Assembly (NCBI GenBank): GCA_903926205.1
Contig: CAIYID010000004.1
Coordinates: 1-57,717, forward strand
Length of the DNA stretch: 57,717 nucleotides
Direction of reading: 5' to 3'
From: an uncultured Bdellovibrionales bacterium
GTDB lineage: Bacteria > Bdellovibrionota > Bdellovibrionia > Bdellovibrionales > Bdellovibrionaceae
Positions within the stretch are counted from its first letter, which is position 1. Every line of letters begins with the position of its first letter. The notes under the pieces are model-generated. The model worked only from the letters and a program-made list of their open reading frames with translations, was not told where the DNA came from and searched no databases. A program made the translations under genes and the position numbers. This document shows, piece after piece, positions 127 to 10,306 of the stretch.

Positions 127-822
127 TTGCAAAGAATTTTGATCGTGGATGATGACAAAGTGATACTAAGGACTTTGCAAGCCATGCTTGAAAAATACTC
201 CTATTCTGTTGTTACTGCGGTTGACGGTCACGATGCGTATGAAAAAATACAACAAGAAAAATTTAATCTTGTTATCACAGATATTAATATGCCACATCAA
301 TTTAATGGTTTTCGCTTGATGAAAGTCATTCGAGAAGATGCGCGTAATAAAACGACTCCTGTGGTTGTTCTCACGGGAAGAAACAATGAAATAGATGTTC
401 TTCGTACCATTCAGGCCGGCGCTGATGATTATATAGTTAAGCCCATCAATGTGGACGTTTTTCTTGCAAAAATAGAAAACCTCATGGGTTTAAAAAATAA
501 AAATCCAGGTTTTTATACATCTAAGGTGGAATATTCGGCGACTTGGTTAGCCCATTTAAAAATTGTAGGAATTTCGGAGCAAGGATTGATATTTAAAGCT
601 CCATTGCCATTACCAATTGATCTTAAATTTAAAATTGAAAGTCCTTTATTTACTGAGATTGGTATGGCTCAACCATTTTTAAGAATTTACTATGTTTCTC
701 CTATTGATCCATCAGATCAAAGCTATCATGTAGAAACTAGTTTTGTCGGCCTAGGTGAGACTGATTTTCAGCTCATACGTCGCTGGGTTATGAAAAATAA
801 TCTTAATAAAATGGCCGCCTAG
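127..822 (+). CDS. Response regulator with PilZ-like C-terminal domain
   Basis: A 231-residue protein. Residues 1-120 form a receiver domain, with acidic residues D8-D10, phosphoacceptor D52 in the stretch TDINMP, and the conserved lysine in VKPIN. Residues from about 130 look like a PilZ-type domain: short beta strands with a SEQGLIFKAPLPLP segment and a closing FVGLGETDFQLIRRWV. PilZ domains usually bind cyclic di-GMP, but the RxxxR motif is not clear here, so nucleotide binding is uncertain. The start is a TTG at 127, chosen because AGGAGG lies just before it at 117-122. It opens a run of two-component genes and has no adjacent partner kinase, so it is probably fed by a kinase further along. 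Confidence 0.8.
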   Translation: MQRILIVDDDKVILRTLQAMLEKYSYSVVTAVDGHDAYEKIQQEKFNLVITDINMPHQFNGFRLMKVIREDARNKTTPVVVLTGRNNEIDVLRTIQAGADDYIVKPINVDVFLAKIENLMGLKNKNPGFYTSKVEYSATWLAHLKIVGISEQGLIFKAPLPLPIDLKFKIESPLFTEIGMAQPFLRIYYVSPIDPSDQSYHVETSFVGLGETDFQLIRRWVMKNNLNKMAA

Positions 823-948
823 ATCAGTCTCGGCGTTCTGTCTTAAAGTTAAACAAAAAAGTTGAGAATTCTTAACACCAGCTCCATCGCCCTTTCATTT
901 TATGACTGTACAATAAAGAGAGTCACAAAAAGGAAAGGCGTGTTCTTA

Positions 949-2307
949 ATGATAAGAGTTCTGATTCTTGAAGATGATCCGGTTGAACTTAAAATCTGGC
1001 AGCTTCGTATAAAAAATTTGTTCCCTAAAGCTGAGGTTTTAGCTTTACCCTGCGTTGATCGCTTGGACCCGGATATTGGTAAAATCGAGGATGTTGGAAA
1101 AAATTTTGATATCATTATTTCAGATATTTTTTTAGCGGGTGAAACGAGCGGTATTGAGTTTGTTAGGCGTCAATCTCAGGAAACACAGCAAAAAATCATA
1201 CTTTCCTCAGGGGTTTCTTTAGAAAGTTACACTGAGCTCGCGAAGGAACTGAATTTAAATTGTCATTTTATTCAAAAGCCACTGAATAAAATAAATGTGC
1301 AAGAAATGCTGATAAAGGTTCTGCAAAAACAAGATAAGGATTTTTTCGCGGAATCAACGTTCGAAGAAACTGATAAAGTCATTGATTTTCAGAAGAAAAA
1401 AATTCGTCAGTCAATGCCAGTTTTTCTCATTACTGGGTGCAGTTCTGGAGTCGGTGAGTCTTTAGCAAAACTATTGTTAATGAAAAAAGCTTATCGACTG
1501 GTGCTAACGGCGCGTCCGAAATCATTGGCTCTTTTGAGGGAAAGATTTCGTGAGGATTGTCGTGTAATGATTCTTCCTCTCGACCTGACAAACGAAAGTC
1601 AGATACAAGAGACGGTGCTGCAGGTTTTAAAAAGATGGGGACGTATCGATGTGCTGGTAAATAATGCAGGTCTTTGTTACCGCTCAGTGGTTGAGCAAAT
1701 GGATATGGATTCTGAAGAATCGCAGATGAAAACAAATTATCTTGGGCCTATGGCGCTCATCAGATCAGTTATGTCGGTCATGAGGGAAAATGGGCGTGGT
1801 AAAATCATTAATGTGTCTTCTGTTTCAGGAATTATGGGAATGCCGACCATGGCTTCCTACAGTGCATCTAAGCATGCTCTTGAAGGAGCTTCGGAATCTC
1901 TTTGGTATGAAATGAAACCTTTTGGTATTAATGTCACCGTCGTACGGCCTGGGTTTGTAAACAACGAAGGTCATTCCCATGTTGCTTCGGCCGACAAGGC
2001 TCGTCTTGCAGAAATTCTAAATGGACCCTACTCAGACTTCTATGTATTCATGAAACCGTTTGTTTCTTTTTTAATGAAATTTTCACTCCAAAATTCTGAT
2101 GCCGTTGCAATTAAAATAATGAAAATAATAAAGACTCAAAATCCGCCTCTTTGGGTGAACGCAACTTTTGATGCTTATTTGTTTTCTTTCTTGAAGTCGA
2201 TACTGCCTGCTACCTGGTTCTACAAACTGATGAATCAATTTTTCCTTCGAGCGGCCAAGTGGGGAGAGGGATATAGCAAGGCAGATAAACGAAGATTAAT
2301 TTCCTAA
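949..2307 (+). CDS. Receiver domain fused to a short-chain dehydrogenase/reductase
   Basis: A 452-residue protein with two parts. Residues 1-130 are a receiver domain: D9/D10 acidic pocket, phosphoacceptor D59 in IIISDIF, lysine K110 in FIQKPLN. Residues 157 to the end are a classical SDR oxidoreductase: nucleotide-binding TGCSSGVG (162-169), NNAG (238-241), an INVSSVSG serine strand, and the catalytic pair Y304/K308 in YSASK, followed by a PGFV segment. The frame stays open further upstream, but ATG 949 is preceded by AGGAAAGG at a good distance and begins exactly at the receiver domain. The substrate is unknown. Phosphorylation probably controls an enzyme directly rather than DNA binding. 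The fusion is uncommon and appears intact. Confidence 0.85.
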   Translation: MIRVLILEDDPVELKIWQLRIKNLFPKAEVLALPCVDRLDPDIGKIEDVGKNFDIIISDIFLAGETSGIEFVRRQSQETQQKIILSSGVSLESYTELAKELNLNCHFIQKPLNKINVQEMLIKVLQKQDKDFFAESTFEETDKVIDFQKKKIRQSMPVFLITGCSSGVGESLAKLLLMKKAYRLVLTARPKSLALLRERFREDCRVMILPLDLTNESQIQETVLQVLKRWGRIDVLVNNAGLCYRSVVEQMDMDSEESQMKTNYLGPMALIRSVMSVMRENGRGKIINVSSVSGIMGMPTMASYSASKHALEGASESLWYEMKPFGINVTVVRPGFVNNEGHSHVASADKARLAEILNGPYSDFYVFMKPFVSFLMKFSLQNSDAVAIKIMKIIKTQNPPLWVNATFDAYLFSFLKSILPATWFYKLMNQFFLRAAKWGEGYSKADKRRLIS

Positions 2308-2356: not shown

Positions 2357-3070
2357 CTAGGCGATTTTCACGGAGTTCATTGTTTGAAGAGAAAATTTGT
2401 ATCCAGCGTTGTGAATAGCAATTATAGTGTGATCTGAGCGCGAGATTTTTTTTCGAATTCGACTGATATGTGAGTCAATTGTTCTATCTGAAATGCTGAA
2501 ATTTTGCTTCCACGCAGCATTAATTATCTGCTCGCGAGACATTACCTGATCTTTGTATTTTGCTAAAAAACTGAGAATTTTAAATTCCATTGAGGTTAGT
2601 TCAATGATTTCTGTCTGGTTATCGAAGAAAGTAAAAACTTTTTGTTCAAGATGGTTGATCGTCAAGTTTCCTGCTTGAGTTAAAGTTTCACCTTCTTTTA
2701 CTTGTTGATGTCGTTTGAGTCTTGCTTCGACTCTGATTTTTAATTCAACAGGATCAAAGGGTTTTGGGATGTAGTCTTCTGCTCCCATATGAAAGGCCAG
2801 GACTTTATTCTGGATTTGAGTTTTTGAAGTCAGAATAATAACTGGAATTTTTGCAAAATGCTCATTTTCATTGAGTCGGGTGAGAAATTCAAAGCCATCT
2901 CCATCGGGCAGACTAAGGTCGAGAATGATAAAATCGATTATATTTTGTTTTAATTCTTTATATGCTTCGAGCAGCGTCGTTGCTGTTAAAACTTGTGCAG
3001 TACTGAGAAAAGTACGTTTAATGATGAGTTGAACTTCTTTAGAATCTTCTACACAAAGCAATTTAATCAT
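2357..3070 (-). CDS. OmpR/PhoB-family response regulator
   Basis: A 237-residue regulator. Residues 1-120 are a receiver domain with acidic E8/D9, phosphoacceptor D51 in LDLSLPDGDG and lysine in PKPFDP. The C-terminal part is a winged-helix DNA-binding domain of the Trans_reg_C type, with EFKILSFLAKY and SISDRTIDSHISRIRKK. A GGAGAAG ribosome site precedes ATG 3070. It is convergent with the REC-SDR gene and divergent from the Hpt gene. No sensor kinase is adjacent on its strand. It could receive phosphate from the Hpt protein encoded next door. Confidence 0.88.
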   Translation of the reverse strand: MIKLLCVEDSKEVQLIIKRTFLSTAQVLTATTLLEAYKELKQNIIDFIILDLSLPDGDGFEFLTRLNENEHFAKIPVIILTSKTQIQNKVLAFHMGAEDYIPKPFDPVELKIRVEARLKRHQQVKEGETLTQAGNLTINHLEQKVFTFFDNQTEIIELTSMEFKILSFLAKYKDQVMSREQIINAAWKQNFSISDRTIDSHISRIRKKISRSDHTIIAIHNAGYKFSLQTMNSVKIA

Positions 3071-3314: not shown

Positions 3315-3692
3315 ATGGCACTGGCCGAGACAAAACAATCTGTCTTAAATTCCGAGACCCTCGAGAGTCTAGAAAGCCTCCAAATCGAGGGAGAGCCGGA
3401 TTTGGTTTTTGAAATTTTCTCAATTTTTATTGAAAACGCTGCAGAGAGATTGGCGTCAATGGATCGACTAGCAAGTTTGGCACAGCTTCAGGACTTATCA
3501 ATGGAAGCTCATGCTCTCAAATCAAGCGCTCGAGCTATTGGAGCCCTCAATCTTGGAAAAATGTGTGAACAGTTGGAATTTCACCCGGAGCAAGGTCTCG
3601 GAGCAGAAAAACTTCTTGAAAAACTTCATAGTGAAATGAACCTTGTTATCATTGAACTAAAAAAACATAAACCTGCTTTGTCAAATTTCTAG
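3315..3692 (+). CDS. Free-standing Hpt (histidine phosphotransfer) protein
   Basis: A 125-residue, all-helical protein matching the Hpt family. The phosphorylatable histidine is H66 in EAHALKSSARAIGA, followed by the usual glycine and a leucine-rich helix with MCEQLE. Hpt proteins shuttle phosphate between the receiver of a hybrid kinase and downstream response regulators. The hybrid kinase at 6942-8645 carries a C-terminal receiver but no Hpt of its own, so this gene would complete a phosphorelay with it; that link is inference. The ribosome site is weak (AGG before ATG 3315). Confidence 0.85.
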   Translation: MALAETKQSVLNSETLESLESLQIEGEPDLVFEIFSIFIENAAERLASMDRLASLAQLQDLSMEAHALKSSARAIGALNLGKMCEQLEFHPEQGLGAEKLLEKLHSEMNLVIIELKKHKPALSNF

Positions 3693-3730: not shown

Positions 3731-6700
3731 ATGGAAAATTCAAAAAAACCAGAATATTTAGTCGGCATTGGTGCGTCTGCGGGTGGTCTTGAGGCGCTTC
3801 AAGATTTTTTTAATAATATGCCTGCGGTTCATGATCTTGCTTTTGTTGTGATCCAGCATTTGTCGCCGGATTTTAAATCGCTCATGAATCAGCTCTTGAG
3901 TAATTTCACAAAGCTAAAAATTCAGGTCGTCGAAAATAAAATGCTCATCGAAAAAGACACGATCTATTTGATTCCACCAAAGAACAACATGATTGTTGAA
4001 AACGGTACACTTTATCTTTCGGAGCAAGAACGCGGACATGTTTTAAATTTACCAATAGACATTTTTTTTAAATCTATGGCTAAGGATTTTCTCAATAAAT
4101 CGATTGCGGTTGTTTTATCGGGAACTGGAAGCGACGGCTCGGCAGGAATTCTAGAAGTTGGTGGTGTTGGCGGACTGGTGATTGCACAAAATCCTGATAG
4201 CGCTCAATTTGATGGAATGCCAAGAAGTGCTATTAATACCCAAGTTGTCAATAAGGTTCTTGATGCCAACTTGATCCCAGCATTTATTTCTGATTATCTG
4301 AAGAATCCGATTATCCAAGCAACAGAGTTAGAAAAGGATGAATATAAAAAATCTGGGGATACTTATGGGCAGATTTTTAGTCTTTTAGCTAAGAAAAAAA
4401 AGGTTGATTTCTCCGATTACAAAGAAAGTACAATGTATCGCAGGATCGATCGACGAGCAAAGACACTCTTGATTTCCTCAATCGAAGAATATGCTCAGCG
4501 TTTGTTCAATGACGACACGGAAATCGAGTGTCTTTTTAATGATCTCTTGATTGGTGTCACTTCTTTTTTTAGAGATCATGAAGCTTTTGAAGCTCTTGAA
4601 TCTGAGCACATTCCAGCACTCTTTCAACAAAGAATTGATACCCAACAATTACGTGTATGGATTGCCGCCTGTTCGACTGGCGAAGAAGCTTACTCTTTTG
4701 CTATTCTGCTTAAAGAATACTCGGAAAAGCTAAAAAAGGCTTTTGATATTAAAATTTTTGCTAGCGATATAAGTCGGAGCTATCTCAGCATTGCAAACCA
4801 AGGCTGTTTCACCGAAGCGTCTCTGGTCAATGTATCGCAGCAAAGAAAAGATCAATTTTTTTTAAAAAAAGGGGATCGTTATTATATTGTGCCTGAAATA
4901 CGCAATATGATTGTGTTTGCTCCGCAAAATTTGGTTGTGGATCCTCCCTTTACCAATATCGATTTAATTTCATGTAGGAATTTTTTAATTTACATAAAGC
5001 CTGAGGCACAACAACGAATAATTTCCTCATTTCACTTTTCCCTCAATAAGGGAGGAATTTTGTTTTTAGGTTCGAGCGAAGGAACTGGCGATCTTAGTAG
5101 CAGTTTTTCCGAAGAAGATAGAACCTGGAAGATTTATAAAAAAATGACTGATGGGCGTATGCCTTTTTATGTAGGACCACGAAAACAGACCACGAGTCGT
5201 TCAATAATTGAACACTTAGATCAAAAACGCTCTTTCAAAGGGCCCAGAATTCTTAAGCAGAAAATTTATGACTTGCTGCTTGAACAATACCTTGAAGATT
5301 CTATTGTTATTGATGTTGAGGAGGAGATTCTACACACGACGGGTAAGGCTAATGTTTTTTTAAATCTTCAATCAGGAAGAATGTCGAGTAATATTATTCG
5401 CTTGATTCATGAAGACTTGCGATCAGTGATAACTTCTGGAATTCATCGAGTTCAAACAGAAAGACGAAATGTTGTTTATAAAAAAAATATAGTTATGATG
5501 GATGGGCAGGAAATCAATGTCGATATCGCAATTAATCCTCTTTATTTAGCTCAAGATGAAATTGGTTTTTTTGTTTTAAAATTCGAAAATTTTTATGAAA
5601 GAAAGAAAGAAGAAGCAACGACGGCTGTTTATGAGATAAATAGTCAAGCTAATCAATTGATTCACGATCTTGAATTTCAGATTCAGACAACAAAAGAAAG
5701 CCTGCAATCAGCTCTTGAAGAGGCCGAAACTACCAATGAAGAACTGCAGTCGACAAATGAGGAACTGCTCGCTTCGAATGAGGAACTCCAATCAACCAAT
5801 GAAGAACTGCATGCTGTGAATGAGGAGCTGTATACCGTCAATTCAGAACACCAAAAGAAAATTGGAGAGCTTGAATCTTTAGAAGAAGACATCAATAATA
5901 TCGCCCATGCCACCGAAGTTGGGACTATCTTTCTGGATGAAAATCTTTGTATTAGAAAAATAACACCGACGGTGTCAGAGACATACAATATTCTGCCTTA
6001 CGATGTTGGGCGTTCAGTTGAGACTTTTGCTCTGCCTTTTCTTAACGAGAACTTTATAAAAAAAGTACGTGAAGTTCAAAAATCGAAAACAGTGCAATAC
6101 GTCGAAAGCGGCAATGACAGCGAGAAATCAATTTTAATTAAAATTCTACCTTATTCGGGAGCAAAAAAAAATCGCGGGATAGTCATTTCAATGCTTGATA
6201 TGACTCTTCAAAAAAACACCGAAATTAAGTTAAATGTTAAAACAAGAGAGCTAGAAGAAGCAACAAAACAGCTCAGTGATTTCGCTCATCTTACGGCAAA
6301 AGATATAAATAATATTTTTGAAAGATTAGAAAAAGAGATAAAGGATTTGAAATGTCCTCTCAATGCAGAGGTGCCAGTGAATTGCAAGATCACTCAATTG
6401 TCACCGCGACTGGCGGCTTTGAGTCTTCATGCTAATGCCTTGAGGCAATTCTCCGAATTGCGTCGAGAAAATCTAAGACTTACGTCAGTTAATTTAAATG
6501 AATTGGTTAAAGATGTATGTTCTGAATTTAAAAGCCATGAAACTTCAGTTATTTTTGATCAGCCGATTGATTTGCCGACTGTTAGTTGTGATCAAGATAT
6601 AATTCGCAATGTTTTTGTTGCGCTGATTGGTAACGCGCTTAAGTTTAATGTCTCGTCTCAAAAGAAAGTAAAGATCGGTTACTGTCATTCAGAGGAACAG

Positions 6701-6961
6701 CATATTTTTTCAGTGCACGATAACGGCATTGGAATTTCTGAAGACCAATTTTTTCAAATATTTAAAATATTCTCCGGATTAAATCGAAAAGGTCTTTCTT
6801 CAGAGGGACAGGGTGTTGGCTTGGCTCTGGCTAAACGAGGTTTGGAATTGCAGAAGGGAAAGATCTGGGTTGAATCGGAAGTTGATGTTGGTTCTACTTT
6901 TTATTTTTCGCTTCCTGATAATTCCATTGAGTCGGGCGGGGTTGAATATCGAATCAAATGA
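3731..6961 (+). CDS. CheB-CheR-coiled coil-PAS-histidine-kinase-like fusion protein
   Basis: A 1076-residue multi-domain protein. Residues 10-185 are a CheB methylesterase domain with catalytic S16 (GASAGG), H43 (IQHLSP) and D135 (GTGSDG). Residues about 210-470 are a CheR methyltransferase, with AACSTGEEAYS as SAM-binding loop and CRNFLIY. A coiled coil of NEEL repeats spans about 655-720, followed by a PAS domain (about 725-830) and a kinase region. The expected H-box reads FAHLTAKDI, so lysine K857 replaces the phosphoacceptor histidine. The ATPase part retains an N box (NALKFN), DNGIGIS and GQGVGLALAKR. There is no N-terminal receiver on CheB. Such fusions are common near phytochromes and stress sensors, where the Che domains are not usually chemotactic. 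Confidence 0.9.
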   Translation: MENSKKPEYLVGIGASAGGLEALQDFFNNMPAVHDLAFVVIQHLSPDFKSLMNQLLSNFTKLKIQVVENKMLIEKDTIYLIPPKNNMIVENGTLYLSEQERGHVLNLPIDIFFKSMAKDFLNKSIAVVLSGTGSDGSAGILEVGGVGGLVIAQNPDSAQFDGMPRSAINTQVVNKVLDANLIPAFISDYLKNPIIQATELEKDEYKKSGDTYGQIFSLLAKKKKVDFSDYKESTMYRRIDRRAKTLLISSIEEYAQRLFNDDTEIECLFNDLLIGVTSFFRDHEAFEALESEHIPALFQQRIDTQQLRVWIAACSTGEEAYSFAILLKEYSEKLKKAFDIKIFASDISRSYLSIANQGCFTEASLVNVSQQRKDQFFLKKGDRYYIVPEIRNMIVFAPQNLVVDPPFTNIDLISCRNFLIYIKPEAQQRIISSFHFSLNKGGILFLGSSEGTGDLSSSFSEEDRTWKIYKKMTDGRMPFYVGPRKQTTSRSIIEHLDQKRSFKGPRILKQKIYDLLLEQYLEDSIVIDVEEEILHTTGKANVFLNLQSGRMSSNIIRLIHEDLRSVITSGIHRVQTERRNVVYKKNIVMMDGQEINVDIAINPLYLAQDEIGFFVLKFENFYERKKEEATTAVYEINSQANQLIHDLEFQIQTTKESLQSALEEAETTNEELQSTNEELLASNEELQSTNEELHAVNEELYTVNSEHQKKIGELESLEEDINNIAHATEVGTIFLDENLCIRKITPTVSETYNILPYDVGRSVETFALPFLNENFIKKVREVQKSKTVQYVESGNDSEKSILIKILPYSGAKKNRGIVISMLDMTLQKNTEIKLNVKTRELEEATKQLSDFAHLTAKDINNIFERLEKEIKDLKCPLNAEVPVNCKITQLSPRLAALSLHANALRQFSELRRENLRLTSVNLNELVKDVCSEFKSHETSVIFDQPIDLPTVSCDQDIIRNVFVALIGNALKFNVSSQKKVKIGYCHSEEQHIFSVHDNGIGISEDQFFQIFKIFSGLNRKGLSSEGQGVGLALAKRGLELQKGKIWVESEVDVGSTFYFSLPDNSIESGGVEYRIK
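5735..5839 (+). repeat. Five imperfect 21-bp tandem repeats encoding a NEEL coiled coil
   Basis: Inside the CheB-CheR fusion gene, a 21-bp unit beginning AATGAAGAACTGCA recurs five times. Each copy encodes one seven-residue NEELxxx turn (NEELQST, NEELLAS, NEELQST, NEELHAV, NEELYTV). It is a heptad-register repeat of the linker coiled coil typical of this protein family, so it is protein-coding structure rather than a mobile or regulatory repeat. Confidence 0.85.
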
Positions 6962-8645
6962 TCAGTTAAAAATCGATTCTTTTCAAGAGATTGTCAATTA
7001 TAAAAAAGTATTGATGTTTACTCGTGAAGTATTGCTCGTGATGCGAGTTGGCGGAATCTCCGAAGCTATTTTTAATTTCTTAAGAGAGCATCTTAAATGT
7101 GAAAAGGTTGGTTTAATTCGAATCACTCATGGTGAAGTTGATCTGAAATTATTTATTGCGAATAGTCATTTAATCACCATAGATGAGGAAATAAAAAAGA
7201 TCATAAAAAAACAAATTGAACTAGATCAGACAATTTTACATTTTGTTAGTTCGAATAGATCTATTTCAATACTGTTACTCAAGTCGCGAGGCGAGTTGAT
7301 CGGGGCACTTCTTATTTACAATAGCGAAGCTTTTATAAAAACGCTTGAACTGCCATCGGATTACCACTTGCTGATGCTCTTTTTAAGTCATACTTCTTCA
7401 GCATTAAGAGGAGCGCATGAAATTGATAGTGCCATTAATCAAAAGCTTAATCAGTCAATCACATTAGACCGTGACCGTTTGCAAAGCATAAATAAACGGC
7501 TGGAAAATGCGATGCAAGTGAAGTCAGAGTTTTTGGCGAGAATGAGTCATGAAATGAGAACTCCTTTGAGTGTGATTTTAGGTATTATAGATTCTTTGGA
7601 AGAGAAGATTCAGGATCGCTCTGTTGCGGACCTTTTTGGTACAATGAAAAATGCGGGATCAAGTCTGTTGATGCTCATCAATGATGTTCTAGATATTTCA
7701 AAAATAGAAGCCAATGAGTTAAAACTGGATTTGAAGCCTTTGAATTTTCGCGAGTTTATAGAGCAGACGGTTGCTCTTTTTCGAGAAAAGGCGAAGCAAA
7801 AATCAATTCAGCTTGGATTTAGAATAAACCAAGATGTGCCAGAATTTGTATTAGGAGACACACTCAGGTTAAAGCAAGTGCTTTTTAATCTTCTAGGTAA
7901 CGCCCTCAAGTTTACGACAGAAGGTGAAATCCACTTAAGTGTTGTGAAATACCGAAAGCGTGATCATATTTTATTTGAAATTTCAGATACAGGTATTGGG
8001 TTAAGTGCGGAGCAAGCAAAAAAAATATTTGAACCATTTACCCAAGCTGATGAAAGTACCACTAGAAAATATGGTGGAACAGGACTTGGTTTGAGTATTA
8101 CGAAGAAGTTGGTTAAATTAATGGGAGGCGAAATTTTCGTAACTGAAAATAAAGCAGCAGTGTCCGGGTCCGTTTTTATTTTTGATTGCAGATTACCAGC
8201 AACTGCGGCTCCTGCAATGAGTAAACAAAAAACTGAGATTAGCACTGAGTTTTTAAATCGTCCGCTAAAAATATTGATCGCTGAAGATGTTGCGGAAATC
8301 CAACTTGTTATGAGGTTGTATTTAAAAAATACTCGCTTTCAGCTCTCTTTTGCTGAAAATGGAATTGAAGCCTTAGAAAAATACAAGGCTGGAAGCTTTG
8401 ATCTTGTTTTTATGGATATTCATATGCCAATTCTTGGAGGCATTGATTCCACGAAAAATATTCGCGAATTTGAACAACAAGAAAAGTTGGCTAAAACTCC
8501 AATCATTGCACTAACAGCCAATGCTGAGACTGATAATGCTGAAGATATGCGATTAGCCGGTGTCGATGATGTTCTGATAAAACCTGCAAATAAAGCCCAA
8601 ATAATGGATTGCATTGTTCGCTGGACTGAAAAGAAAATATTTTAG
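6942..8645 (+). CDS. Hybrid sensor histidine kinase with C-terminal receiver
   Basis: About 567 residues. The N-terminal 170 residues look like a GAF-type sensor fold without membrane segments, so the protein is probably cytoplasmic. A HisKA domain follows with H203 in ARMSHEMRTPLS. The HATPase domain has NALKFT, DTGIGLS and GTGLGLSITKKL. The receiver carries D492 in FMDIHMP and lysine in LIKPANK. The frame is open further upstream, but that part is the out-of-frame end of the preceding kinase-like gene. The TTG at 6942 behind GGGCGGGG is preferred; ATG 7014 is an alternative. It lies between the CheB-CheR protein and the phytochrome, and could accept a signal from either. Confidence 0.85.
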   Translation: MNIESNDQLKIDSFQEIVNYKKVLMFTREVLLVMRVGGISEAIFNFLREHLKCEKVGLIRITHGEVDLKLFIANSHLITIDEEIKKIIKKQIELDQTILHFVSSNRSISILLLKSRGELIGALLIYNSEAFIKTLELPSDYHLLMLFLSHTSSALRGAHEIDSAINQKLNQSITLDRDRLQSINKRLENAMQVKSEFLARMSHEMRTPLSVILGIIDSLEEKIQDRSVADLFGTMKNAGSSLLMLINDVLDISKIEANELKLDLKPLNFREFIEQTVALFREKAKQKSIQLGFRINQDVPEFVLGDTLRLKQVLFNLLGNALKFTTEGEIHLSVVKYRKRDHILFEISDTGIGLSAEQAKKIFEPFTQADESTTRKYGGTGLGLSITKKLVKLMGGEIFVTENKAAVSGSVFIFDCRLPATAAPAMSKQKTEISTEFLNRPLKILIAEDVAEIQLVMRLYLKNTRFQLSFAENGIEALEKYKAGSFDLVFMDIHMPILGGIDSTKNIREFEQQEKLAKTPIIALTANAETDNAEDMRLAGVDDVLIKPANKAQIMDCIVRWTEKKIF

Positions 8646-8776: not shown

Positions 8777-10306
8777 ATGAACAAAAATGGAAATATTAAA
8801 TCACCCAACCATCCTGCAGAACTAGAAAAACTTGTGCTCAGCTGTGAGGCAGAGCAACTTCACCTGTCGGGCGCAATTCAGCCCTTCGGTGCTCTTCTTC
8901 GCATCGATACGCAGACACACAAAATCACCCATGCTTCGGCCAATCTTGTCGAATTTATAGGTCTCGAGGCTTCTGCCGTTTTAGGCCAGCCGGCAGAAAG
9001 CTTGAACTGGATTAAATCAGGACTCTTTCCTTCTTTGCCGGAAACCCCGGGAAAGACTGTCGTCATTCAAAAAATTGTCGAAAAAGAAAATGAAAGAGTG
9101 GATGGCTTAGCTATACGAGGAACAAATTGCATTTTAGTCGAGTTAGAAAAAATTAATACAAACGATGAATCTCTATCTCTTGAAGATTTTTTGGATTCCT
9201 TAAGCTCTGTTCGTCTTGATCTTGGTAAAGATGCACTTAAGGAACACCATCAGCTTCTCGTGGATGCCTTCAGGGCGATCATCGGTTATGATCGCGTGAT
9301 GATCTATCGTTTTCATGAAGATTGGACTGGCGAAGTTGTTGCCGAAGCCACAAGTAAAACGAAGGGGAGCTATCTGGGGTTACATTTTCCCTCCAGTGAT
9401 ATTCCCGCTATTGCTCGGAACCTTTACCTTCAAAATCCCGCACGCATGATCCCTGATGCAAAAGTGGCTCCTATTTCAATTCTGAGTAAAGAGAACACTC
9501 CACCGGATTTAACGAGATCTGATCTTCGGAGTGTTTCTCCTGTTCATTTACAATATCTTGAAAATATGGGCGTAGCGGCTTCGTTTTCGGTGCCTATTCG
9601 TTCCGGTGGTAACCTTTGGGGTTTAGTGGCCTGCCATCATTCAAGTCCGCTTCTGCTGTCGCCTGAGCAGCGCTCAGCTTGCGTAAAATTGACAGATGCT
9701 TATAGTAAGTCGCTGATGACACATCTCTTGGGTCGAAGGATGCAAACGATCGATGGCCTCAATCGCCGTATTGATGGTATCATGAGGGATCTTGCCAATT
9801 ACAGTGATCTTCAGTCTGGAATTCACGATTTAGGAGACCAGTTGCTAGAGACGATGGAGGCGCAGGGTTTTGCAATGGCCGTAGGTAAAACTCTTGTGAG
9901 CGTTGGCGAAGGGCCCTCTATCGATCAAATAATGATGATTGATGACTGGTTTCTCAATCAGTATGAAAAACCAACCTTAATTAACAATCATCTTGAAGAG
10001 TTTTTTCTAGATCCGCAGATTCTCCAACAAATCCGAGGACTTTTAGCGATAAAAAGCTGTTCACCGCAATTAGGTTGGATTCGTTGCTATTGGTTTCGAC
10101 CTGAACTAAAACAAGAAGTCGCCTGGGCGGGTAATCCTAATAAACCAATGATGGAAAAAGAGGGCGTACTGATGCTCTCTCCTCGAAGTTCTTTTAAAAC
10201 TTGGATGGAGATTAAGTCAGGTTATAGCCGCCCTTGGAGCGGTGAGATCCAAATGGTTGCGACCAAGTTTCGAAGTGCTCTTTATTCATTGAGCTTACGA
10301 AAATAA
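8777..10306 (+). CDS. Bacteriophytochrome photosensory module (PAS-GAF-PHY, no output domain)
   Basis: A 509-residue protein with the full phytochrome photosensory core. A PAS domain follows C23, which sits in LSCEAEQLHL at the position used by bacteriophytochromes to bind biliverdin. The GAF domain (about 140-320) has YDRVMIYRF, the DIP motif in FPSSDIP, and VACHH near the chromophore pocket. The PHY domain (about 340-509) retains the tongue motif SPRSSFKTW. The protein ends right after PHY, so the usual histidine-kinase module is missing. Signal output must go through a partner, most simply the hybrid kinase just upstream. A GAGGGCG ribosome site precedes ATG 8777. No haem oxygenase gene for making biliverdin is visible in the window. 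Confidence 0.9.
   Translation: MNKNGNIKSPNHPAELEKLVLSCEAEQLHLSGAIQPFGALLRIDTQTHKITHASANLVEFIGLEASAVLGQPAESLNWIKSGLFPSLPETPGKTVVIQKIVEKENERVDGLAIRGTNCILVELEKINTNDESLSLEDFLDSLSSVRLDLGKDALKEHHQLLVDAFRAIIGYDRVMIYRFHEDWTGEVVAEATSKTKGSYLGLHFPSSDIPAIARNLYLQNPARMIPDAKVAPISILSKENTPPDLTRSDLRSVSPVHLQYLENMGVAASFSVPIRSGGNLWGLVACHHSSPLLLSPEQRSACVKLTDAYSKSLMTHLLGRRMQTIDGLNRRIDGIMRDLANYSDLQSGIHDLGDQLLETMEAQGFAMAVGKTLVSVGEGPSIDQIMMIDDWFLNQYEKPTLINNHLEEFFLDPQILQQIRGLLAIKSCSPQLGWIRCYWFRPELKQEVAWAGNPNKPMMEKEGVLMLSPRSSFKTWMEIKSGYSRPWSGEIQMVATKFRSALYSLSLRK

Follow-up and report, generated by a model that had tools for sequence, protein, structure and literature searches.

A receiver domain and a short-chain dehydrogenase share one polypeptide in an uncultured Bdellovibrionales bacterium. 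We analyzed a stretch of 57,717 nucleotides (hereafter, the window) in which one uninterrupted reading frame encodes a receiver (REC) domain that some 30 linker residues connect to a downstream short-chain dehydrogenase (SDR). That frame stays open in the 5' direction as far as a TTG at position 862, and the ATG at 949, preceded by the putative ribosome-binding motif AGGAAAGG, is the likely start. A preliminary description of this DNA had proposed that both proteins are carried on one chain; the frame and the key residues of both halves agree with this. The genes and domains are listed in the table.

Features of the REC-SDR locus and its signaling neighborhood (positions are those of the window).
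Feature	Position	Strand	Remarks
REC-SDR fusion gene	949..2307	+	452 aa, ATG start
AGGAAAGG, probable ribosome-binding site of ATG 949	931..938	+	sequence
REC domain, residues 1-125	949..1323	+	D59 codon 1123-1125, S87 1207-1209, K110 1276-1278
Linker, residues 126-156	1324..1416	+	helix 138-155 predicted at low confidence
SDR catalytic core, residues 157-340	1417..1968	+	TGCSSGVG 1432-1455, NNAG 1660-1671, Y304 1858-1860, K308 1870-1872
SDR C-terminal region, residues 341-452	1969..2304	+	likely substrate-binding part, by inferred function
Response regulator RRa	127..822	+	REC, then a C-terminal domain that no Pfam family matches
Response regulator RRb, OmpR type	2357..3070	-	REC and Trans_reg_C (Pfam)
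Hpt protein, candidate phosphodonor	3315..3692	+	125 aa; PF01627, 2.5e-10
CheB-CheR-PAS-HATPase protein	3731..6961	+	1076 aa; Pfam
Hybrid histidine kinase (HisKA-HATPase-REC)	6813..8645	+	start uncertain, may be near 6972
Phytochrome photosensory part (PAS_2-GAF-PHY)	8777..10306	+	no kinase domain

The receiver half is divergent in sequence, with a receiver fold in its structural model. Scanned alone, the N-terminal part matches Pfam Response_reg (PF00072) at 23.4 bits (6.9e-05), below the curated cut-off of 30.2, and the family is not detected in the whole 452-aa protein at an E-value of 0.001. The characteristic residues E8, D9, D10, D59, S87, and K110-P111 are present, and D9, D59, S87, K110, and P111 are invariant in all 18 aligned REC rows, the window's among them. 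This alignment (A1) omits the receivers of L148, on account of its stop codon, and L150, whose reading frame was hidden in the gene call and which was included in the REC tree. The REC model (5 sequences; pLDDT 83.1, pTM 0.81) runs in (beta-alpha)5 order, strand 3 ending at D59, strand 4 at S87, and strand 5 at K110, and receiver domains rank first when it is searched against the PDB (3jte, TM-score 0.78). Some relatives have receivers that exceed the family cut-off, for example L153 at 40.3 bits. The receiver had earlier been called intact, which is right for its residues and modeled fold but not for its family score; its identity is settled by residues and fold rather than by a score above the cut-off. 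A full-length model of the fusion (6 sequences) is of low confidence (pLDDT 68, pTM 0.62).

The dehydrogenase half has the core of a classical SDR. Residues 158-340 match adh_short in Pfam (6.5e-44), and the protein contains TGCSSGVG (162-169), NNAG (238-241), N263, S290/S291, Y304, and K308. It thus has in common with the classical family a Rossmann core with TGxxxGxG, NNAG, and the N-S-Y-K set; unlike classical SDRs, it has an N-terminal REC and belongs to a REC-linked branch, here seen only in Bdellovibrionales. N263, S290, S291, Y304, and K308 are identical in all 21 REC-linked rows; NNAG is whole in the window, and G241 is replaced by alanine in 5 of the 21. The proposal that both halves keep their functional residues extends to 18/18 rows for REC and 21/21 for SDR.

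The cofactor of the SDR half is probably NADP(H). Arg189, which closes the second strand, is found in all 21 REC-linked rows and in all 78 other rows with a residue at that position, and by the rules of SDR cofactor use we take it to be a sign of NADP(H) preference. Structurally, the SDR half is best covered, among the 50 structures listed, by NADP-bound 17-beta-HSD1 (PDB 1qyx, 1fdt), with a TM-score for 1qyx of 0.52 by query and 0.82 by target. Identity is 24-25%, and a steroid substrate is not implied. This fold likeness, together with the long C-terminal part, suggests that the substrate may be a lipid-like or hydrophobic carbonyl compound. Among the NCBIfam models shown, no cut-off for a named SDR subfamily is reached; PRK06914 and PRK06180 are the best, and the top score is 185.7 against a cut-off of 320. 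We dropped 3-ketodihydrosphingosine reductase (KdsR) as a subfamily assignment, its model scoring 157.7 of 400 bits.

The fusion occurs in two genomes and is therefore independent of any one assembly. The closest full-cover relative, in G029, is 47% identical over residues 1-442 and has the same architecture in an open frame of 461 aa. Within the window, the fusion frame is open across the REC-SDR joint, and the other two frames hit stops by 1470. A sequencing frameshift near 1390, a possibility raised in the preliminary description, is not seen, and an artifact of frameshift or assembly is ruled out by the open joint and the equally fused gene of G029. Separate translation of the SDR half also deserves consideration. 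It may begin at an internal ATG at 1414, but inspection of the sequence finds no ribosome-binding motif ahead of this codon. In G029, the nearest starts 5' of the SDR glycine motif (residues 149/150) sit within strand 1 of the SDR, and independent translation would scarcely yield a complete SDR there. Judged from these sequences, the protein is a genuine and probably functional fusion of receiver and dehydrogenase.

Most relatives of the fusion are encoded as two adjacent genes. We sampled 140 genomes of the order Bdellovibrionales, 76 of which contain an SDR match with an E-value of at most 1e-30, and inspected the surroundings of 100 SDR family members, the window included. The weakest matches (approximately six, with E about 1e-31 to 1e-35) were left out of this neighborhood reading, and L028, which is the same locus as L044, was left uncounted. 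At 19 loci, the SDR gene is directly preceded on its strand by a separate gene for a receiver of the kind seen in the fusion, with a spacing that ranges mostly from a few-base overlap (the genes also overlap in G133) up to a 27-base gap. With the two fused genes, which come from two genera, this gives 21 REC-linked loci in 20 genomes, G029 having a fused gene plus a separate pair. Of the 79 remaining family members, a REC-bearing gene lies directly upstream in only two (L036 and L097), and a single-domain receiver in none. Chance neighborhood is thereby ruled out as the main explanation. Upstream of L036 is the gene for a different type of regulator (229 aa), and the L036 SDR lies elsewhere in the tree; the gene upstream of L097 encodes a 728-aa kinase with a receiver.

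REC-linked SDRs form their own branch. In an SDR tree of 103 rows (3 of them outgroup), all 21 REC-linked SDRs and a fragment, L128, fall into one branch of 22 rows (SH-aLRT 92), and the solo/linked label requires 4 changes on the tree vs a shuffled mean of 22.5. The SDRs of the window and G029 group with L128 (95). Likewise, the REC tree pairs the receiver of the window with that of G029 as its sister (99/95) and nests both among SDR-adjacent receivers and their paralogues, apart from the other receivers of the window (99/99). A single fusion of a pre-existing gene pair fits these trees best, and the fused gene derives from a conserved gene pair, the putative output unit of a Bdellovibrionales phosphorelay.

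Such a joining might carry no mechanistic meaning at all, if two co-transcribed genes in the same frame had simply lost the stop codon between them. Some present-day pairs are a single change away from this: in G045 the SDR gene starts in frame immediately after the REC stop codon, and in G066 the two are one codon apart, again in frame. We nevertheless regard a neutral event as very improbable, given a linker of some 30 residues, the occurrence of 47% identical fusions in two genera, and the intactness of both halves.

The fused form is rare in the phylum sample. A search at 1e-45 returned an SDR match in 80 of 368 genomes, with fusions only in the genome of the window (G000) and in G029. The preliminary description had suggested looking for REC followed by SDR together with the neighboring genes; our searches recovered the combination fused in G029 and as separate pairs at the 19 loci of the order. 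No adjacent REC was found in five matches from outside the order (L164-L168); a sixth from outside (L172) and one from within (L171) start at contig ends. A scan of a species collection gave 6 loci, one of them (L028) with REC beside SDR. A plasmid collection gave at least 5000 matching records, and none among the matches listed covers 80% of the query. The taxonomic restriction of REC-SDR is thus shown within the phylum sample.

REC-SDR genes are often embedded in phosphorelay clusters. The window encodes a hybrid kinase, an Hpt protein, and a terminal receiver together, which is the set required for a multistep phosphorelay; the Hpt and the kinase, noted earlier as potential phosphodonors of the same island, indeed lie within about 8 kb. 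The same island contains a CheB-CheR-PAS-HATPase chain with no HisKA match in Pfam, and it closes with the kinase-less phytochrome part. Across the wide loci, the recurring order is hybrid kinase, Hpt, divergent OmpR-type regulator, receiver 1 (single-domain), small hibernation-like gene, receiver 2, and SDR, which at several loci is incomplete or includes other neighbors. Hybrid kinases adjoin the REC-SDR pair in the loci that were sampled for a Pfam check of Hpt and kinase identities. An Hpt profile matches in 17 of the 21 REC-linked loci vs 4 of the 79 others, in a census where locus lengths are unequal and the Hpt and hibernation-like profiles were built from many of the loci then counted. 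In G043, the receiver is fused to an Hpt domain of its own, as a 279-aa protein (L147:3608-4444) whose gene overlaps the start of the SDR gene; this is another fusion within the same system.

We propose that the fusion is a signaling enzyme, in which phosphorylation of the N-terminal receiver, or its absence, would determine how active the attached SDR is; the SDR itself probably uses NADP(H). To this reading, we assign a probability of roughly 60%. Phosphate would pass from the hybrid kinase to the kinase's own receiver, then to Hpt, and then to D59 of REC-SDR, with the OmpR-type regulator RRb fed in parallel. Phosphorylation would alter either the surface through which REC docks on the SDR or the dimer state, and the oxidoreductase would be turned up or down as a result. 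In most relatives, the receiver and the dehydrogenase would meet in trans as two co-encoded proteins; in the window they are joined and would act in cis. Since most relatives encode both proteins as neighbors within a signaling cluster, the enzyme is probably switched directly by the signal, and the fact that two adjacent genes are the usual form strengthens the functional link between REC and SDR. Phosphotransfer from the window's Hpt, direct control, its direction, and the cofactor are what we infer here; mere co-expression would fit the gene neighborhood and the fusion, too.

The receiver is less tied to the SDR than the SDR is to the receiver. In G020 and G023 (L174, L175), the whole cluster is present up to the second receiver and no SDR follows, and receivers of the SDR-linked type without an adjoining SDR occur in several further genomes. 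These receivers must therefore have a role independent of the SDR, and G020 and G023 argue against a strict dedication of the receiver to the enzyme. G051 (L148) has an in-frame stop in the receiver gene ahead of the lysine codon, beside an intact SDR, which reflects either a sequencing error or decay. In G128, L128 is the remnant of a decayed SDR, and its first part is similar to Hpt (7e-10 when the two sequences are compared); it looks like the product of a deletion that joined the start of an Hpt gene to the middle of an SDR gene. The truncated SDR frame with its Hpt-like opening stretch is registered in this genome as L128/L173. It is the SDR-less receivers, the G051 stop, and L128 on which we base the asymmetry between the two partners.

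An independent role for the receiver, together with the low REC family score, would also suit a different arrangement. REC could be a tether, a dimerization or localization module, or a phosphate sink, attached to a constitutively active SDR, so that fusion would only hold two proteins of the same pathway in a set ratio and at one place. We consider this unlikely, as the phosphorylation residues are invariant in 18/18 rows and REC is fused to, or directly upstream of, the SDR at all 21 loci of the branch.

Information could instead flow from the enzyme to the relay. Some binding-only relatives of SDRs serve as sensors, and the cluster places several receivers beside one Hpt; the SDR might sense a redox cofactor or metabolite and set the phosphorylation or dephosphorylation of REC, with phosphate returning to Hpt and the OmpR-type regulator. 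Pure sensing would have no need of the catalytic residues, which are kept in 21/21 rows, and such a reversal seems to us decidedly improbable. Control of the dehydrogenase by its receiver remains our preferred reading.

Receivers that act directly on enzymes have precedents. In Myxococcus xanthus, the single-domain receiver EpsW, once phosphorylated, reportedly stimulates EpsZ by direct interaction, and substitution of the EpsW aspartate abolishes the effect (PMC12802240). The likeness lies in a receiver that acts on a metabolic enzyme by contact and not through gene control. The differences are that EpsZ is a phosphoglycosyl transferase without homology to the dehydrogenase of the window, and that EpsW and EpsZ are separate proteins with a chemosensory kinase as the source, whereas the window has REC and SDR on one chain. 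REC domains fused to metabolic enzymes are themselves a described general kind of narrow taxonomic spread, with KaiC-like NTPase, glycosyltransferase, thioredoxin reductase, and pyruvate phosphate dikinase as named partners (PMC5847659, section 14). These response regulators with enzymatic output follow the same one-chain plan as the proteins of the window and G029, and SDR is absent among the examples of that section. A 2005 census, in its available part, leaves other enzymatic output domains untreated (PMC1183210). We found no report of a REC-SDR protein in the open-licence literature. Thus, the suggestion that direct phospho-control of a dehydrogenase is rarely described needs qualification: such control of an enzyme is not new in itself, given REC-enzyme fusions and EpsW-EpsZ, and the novelty seems to lie in the pairing of REC with SDR.

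Many REC-linked clusters contain genes that resemble ribosome hibernation factors. At least one hibernation-like gene is found in 14 of 21 REC-linked loci vs 6 of 79 others by profile census, 10 of the 14 positive loci having contributed to the profiles. The small gene type c4 has a profile match to ribosome hibernation factors (5njt, 1.3e-4). The c4 counterpart of G116, which was among the six profile rows, scores above the S30AE cut-off (25.0 vs 23.7). Type c3 reaches only 0.7 in a PDB profile search. From these comparisons, c4 appears hibernation-factor-like and is the better supported of the two; for c3 the resemblance is no more than suggestive. The S30AE-type c4 genes, and the weaker c3 genes, lie between phosphorelay receivers (L134-L153, L169, L170), and a translation-related gene inside a two-component cluster is unusual. 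The census found no hibernation-like gene in the first 14 kb of the window; three S30AE genes above the cut-off are located elsewhere in its genome.

If phosphorylation of D59 changes SDR activity, the fusion would offer a compact, soluble example of direct action by a two-component signal on a metabolic oxidoreductase, whose activity is easily followed by NADPH absorbance. Furthermore, complete genomes in the family contain the two-gene form, so that control in trans could naturally be compared with control in cis. The life-cycle signaling of these predatory bacteria is poorly known, and the conserved cluster of kinase, Hpt, OmpR-type regulator, receivers, hibernation-like factor, and SDR provides a defined target. 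More tentatively, and with considerable doubt on our part, the Bdellovibrionales phosphorelay might act on enzymes beyond genes, its terminal receiver switching a dedicated dehydrogenase in trans or, after fusion, in cis. As the clusters of many species add a hibernation-like protein, one signal could then set redox metabolism and translation together, for example in the non-growing attack phase of predators.

Other arrangements were also observed. In G116 and G117 (L169, L170), a receiver of the first type is followed by an S30AE-like gene, a short hydrophobic frame, and then a more distant SDR, without receiver 2. A similar cluster in G035 (L190) precedes a putative SDR of a different type (346 aa) and another oxidoreductase, presumably Gfo/Idh-like. 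In genus g4 (L040-L094, e.g., L054), the solo SDR relative sits in constant order behind a gene that is presumably DnaB-helicase-like.
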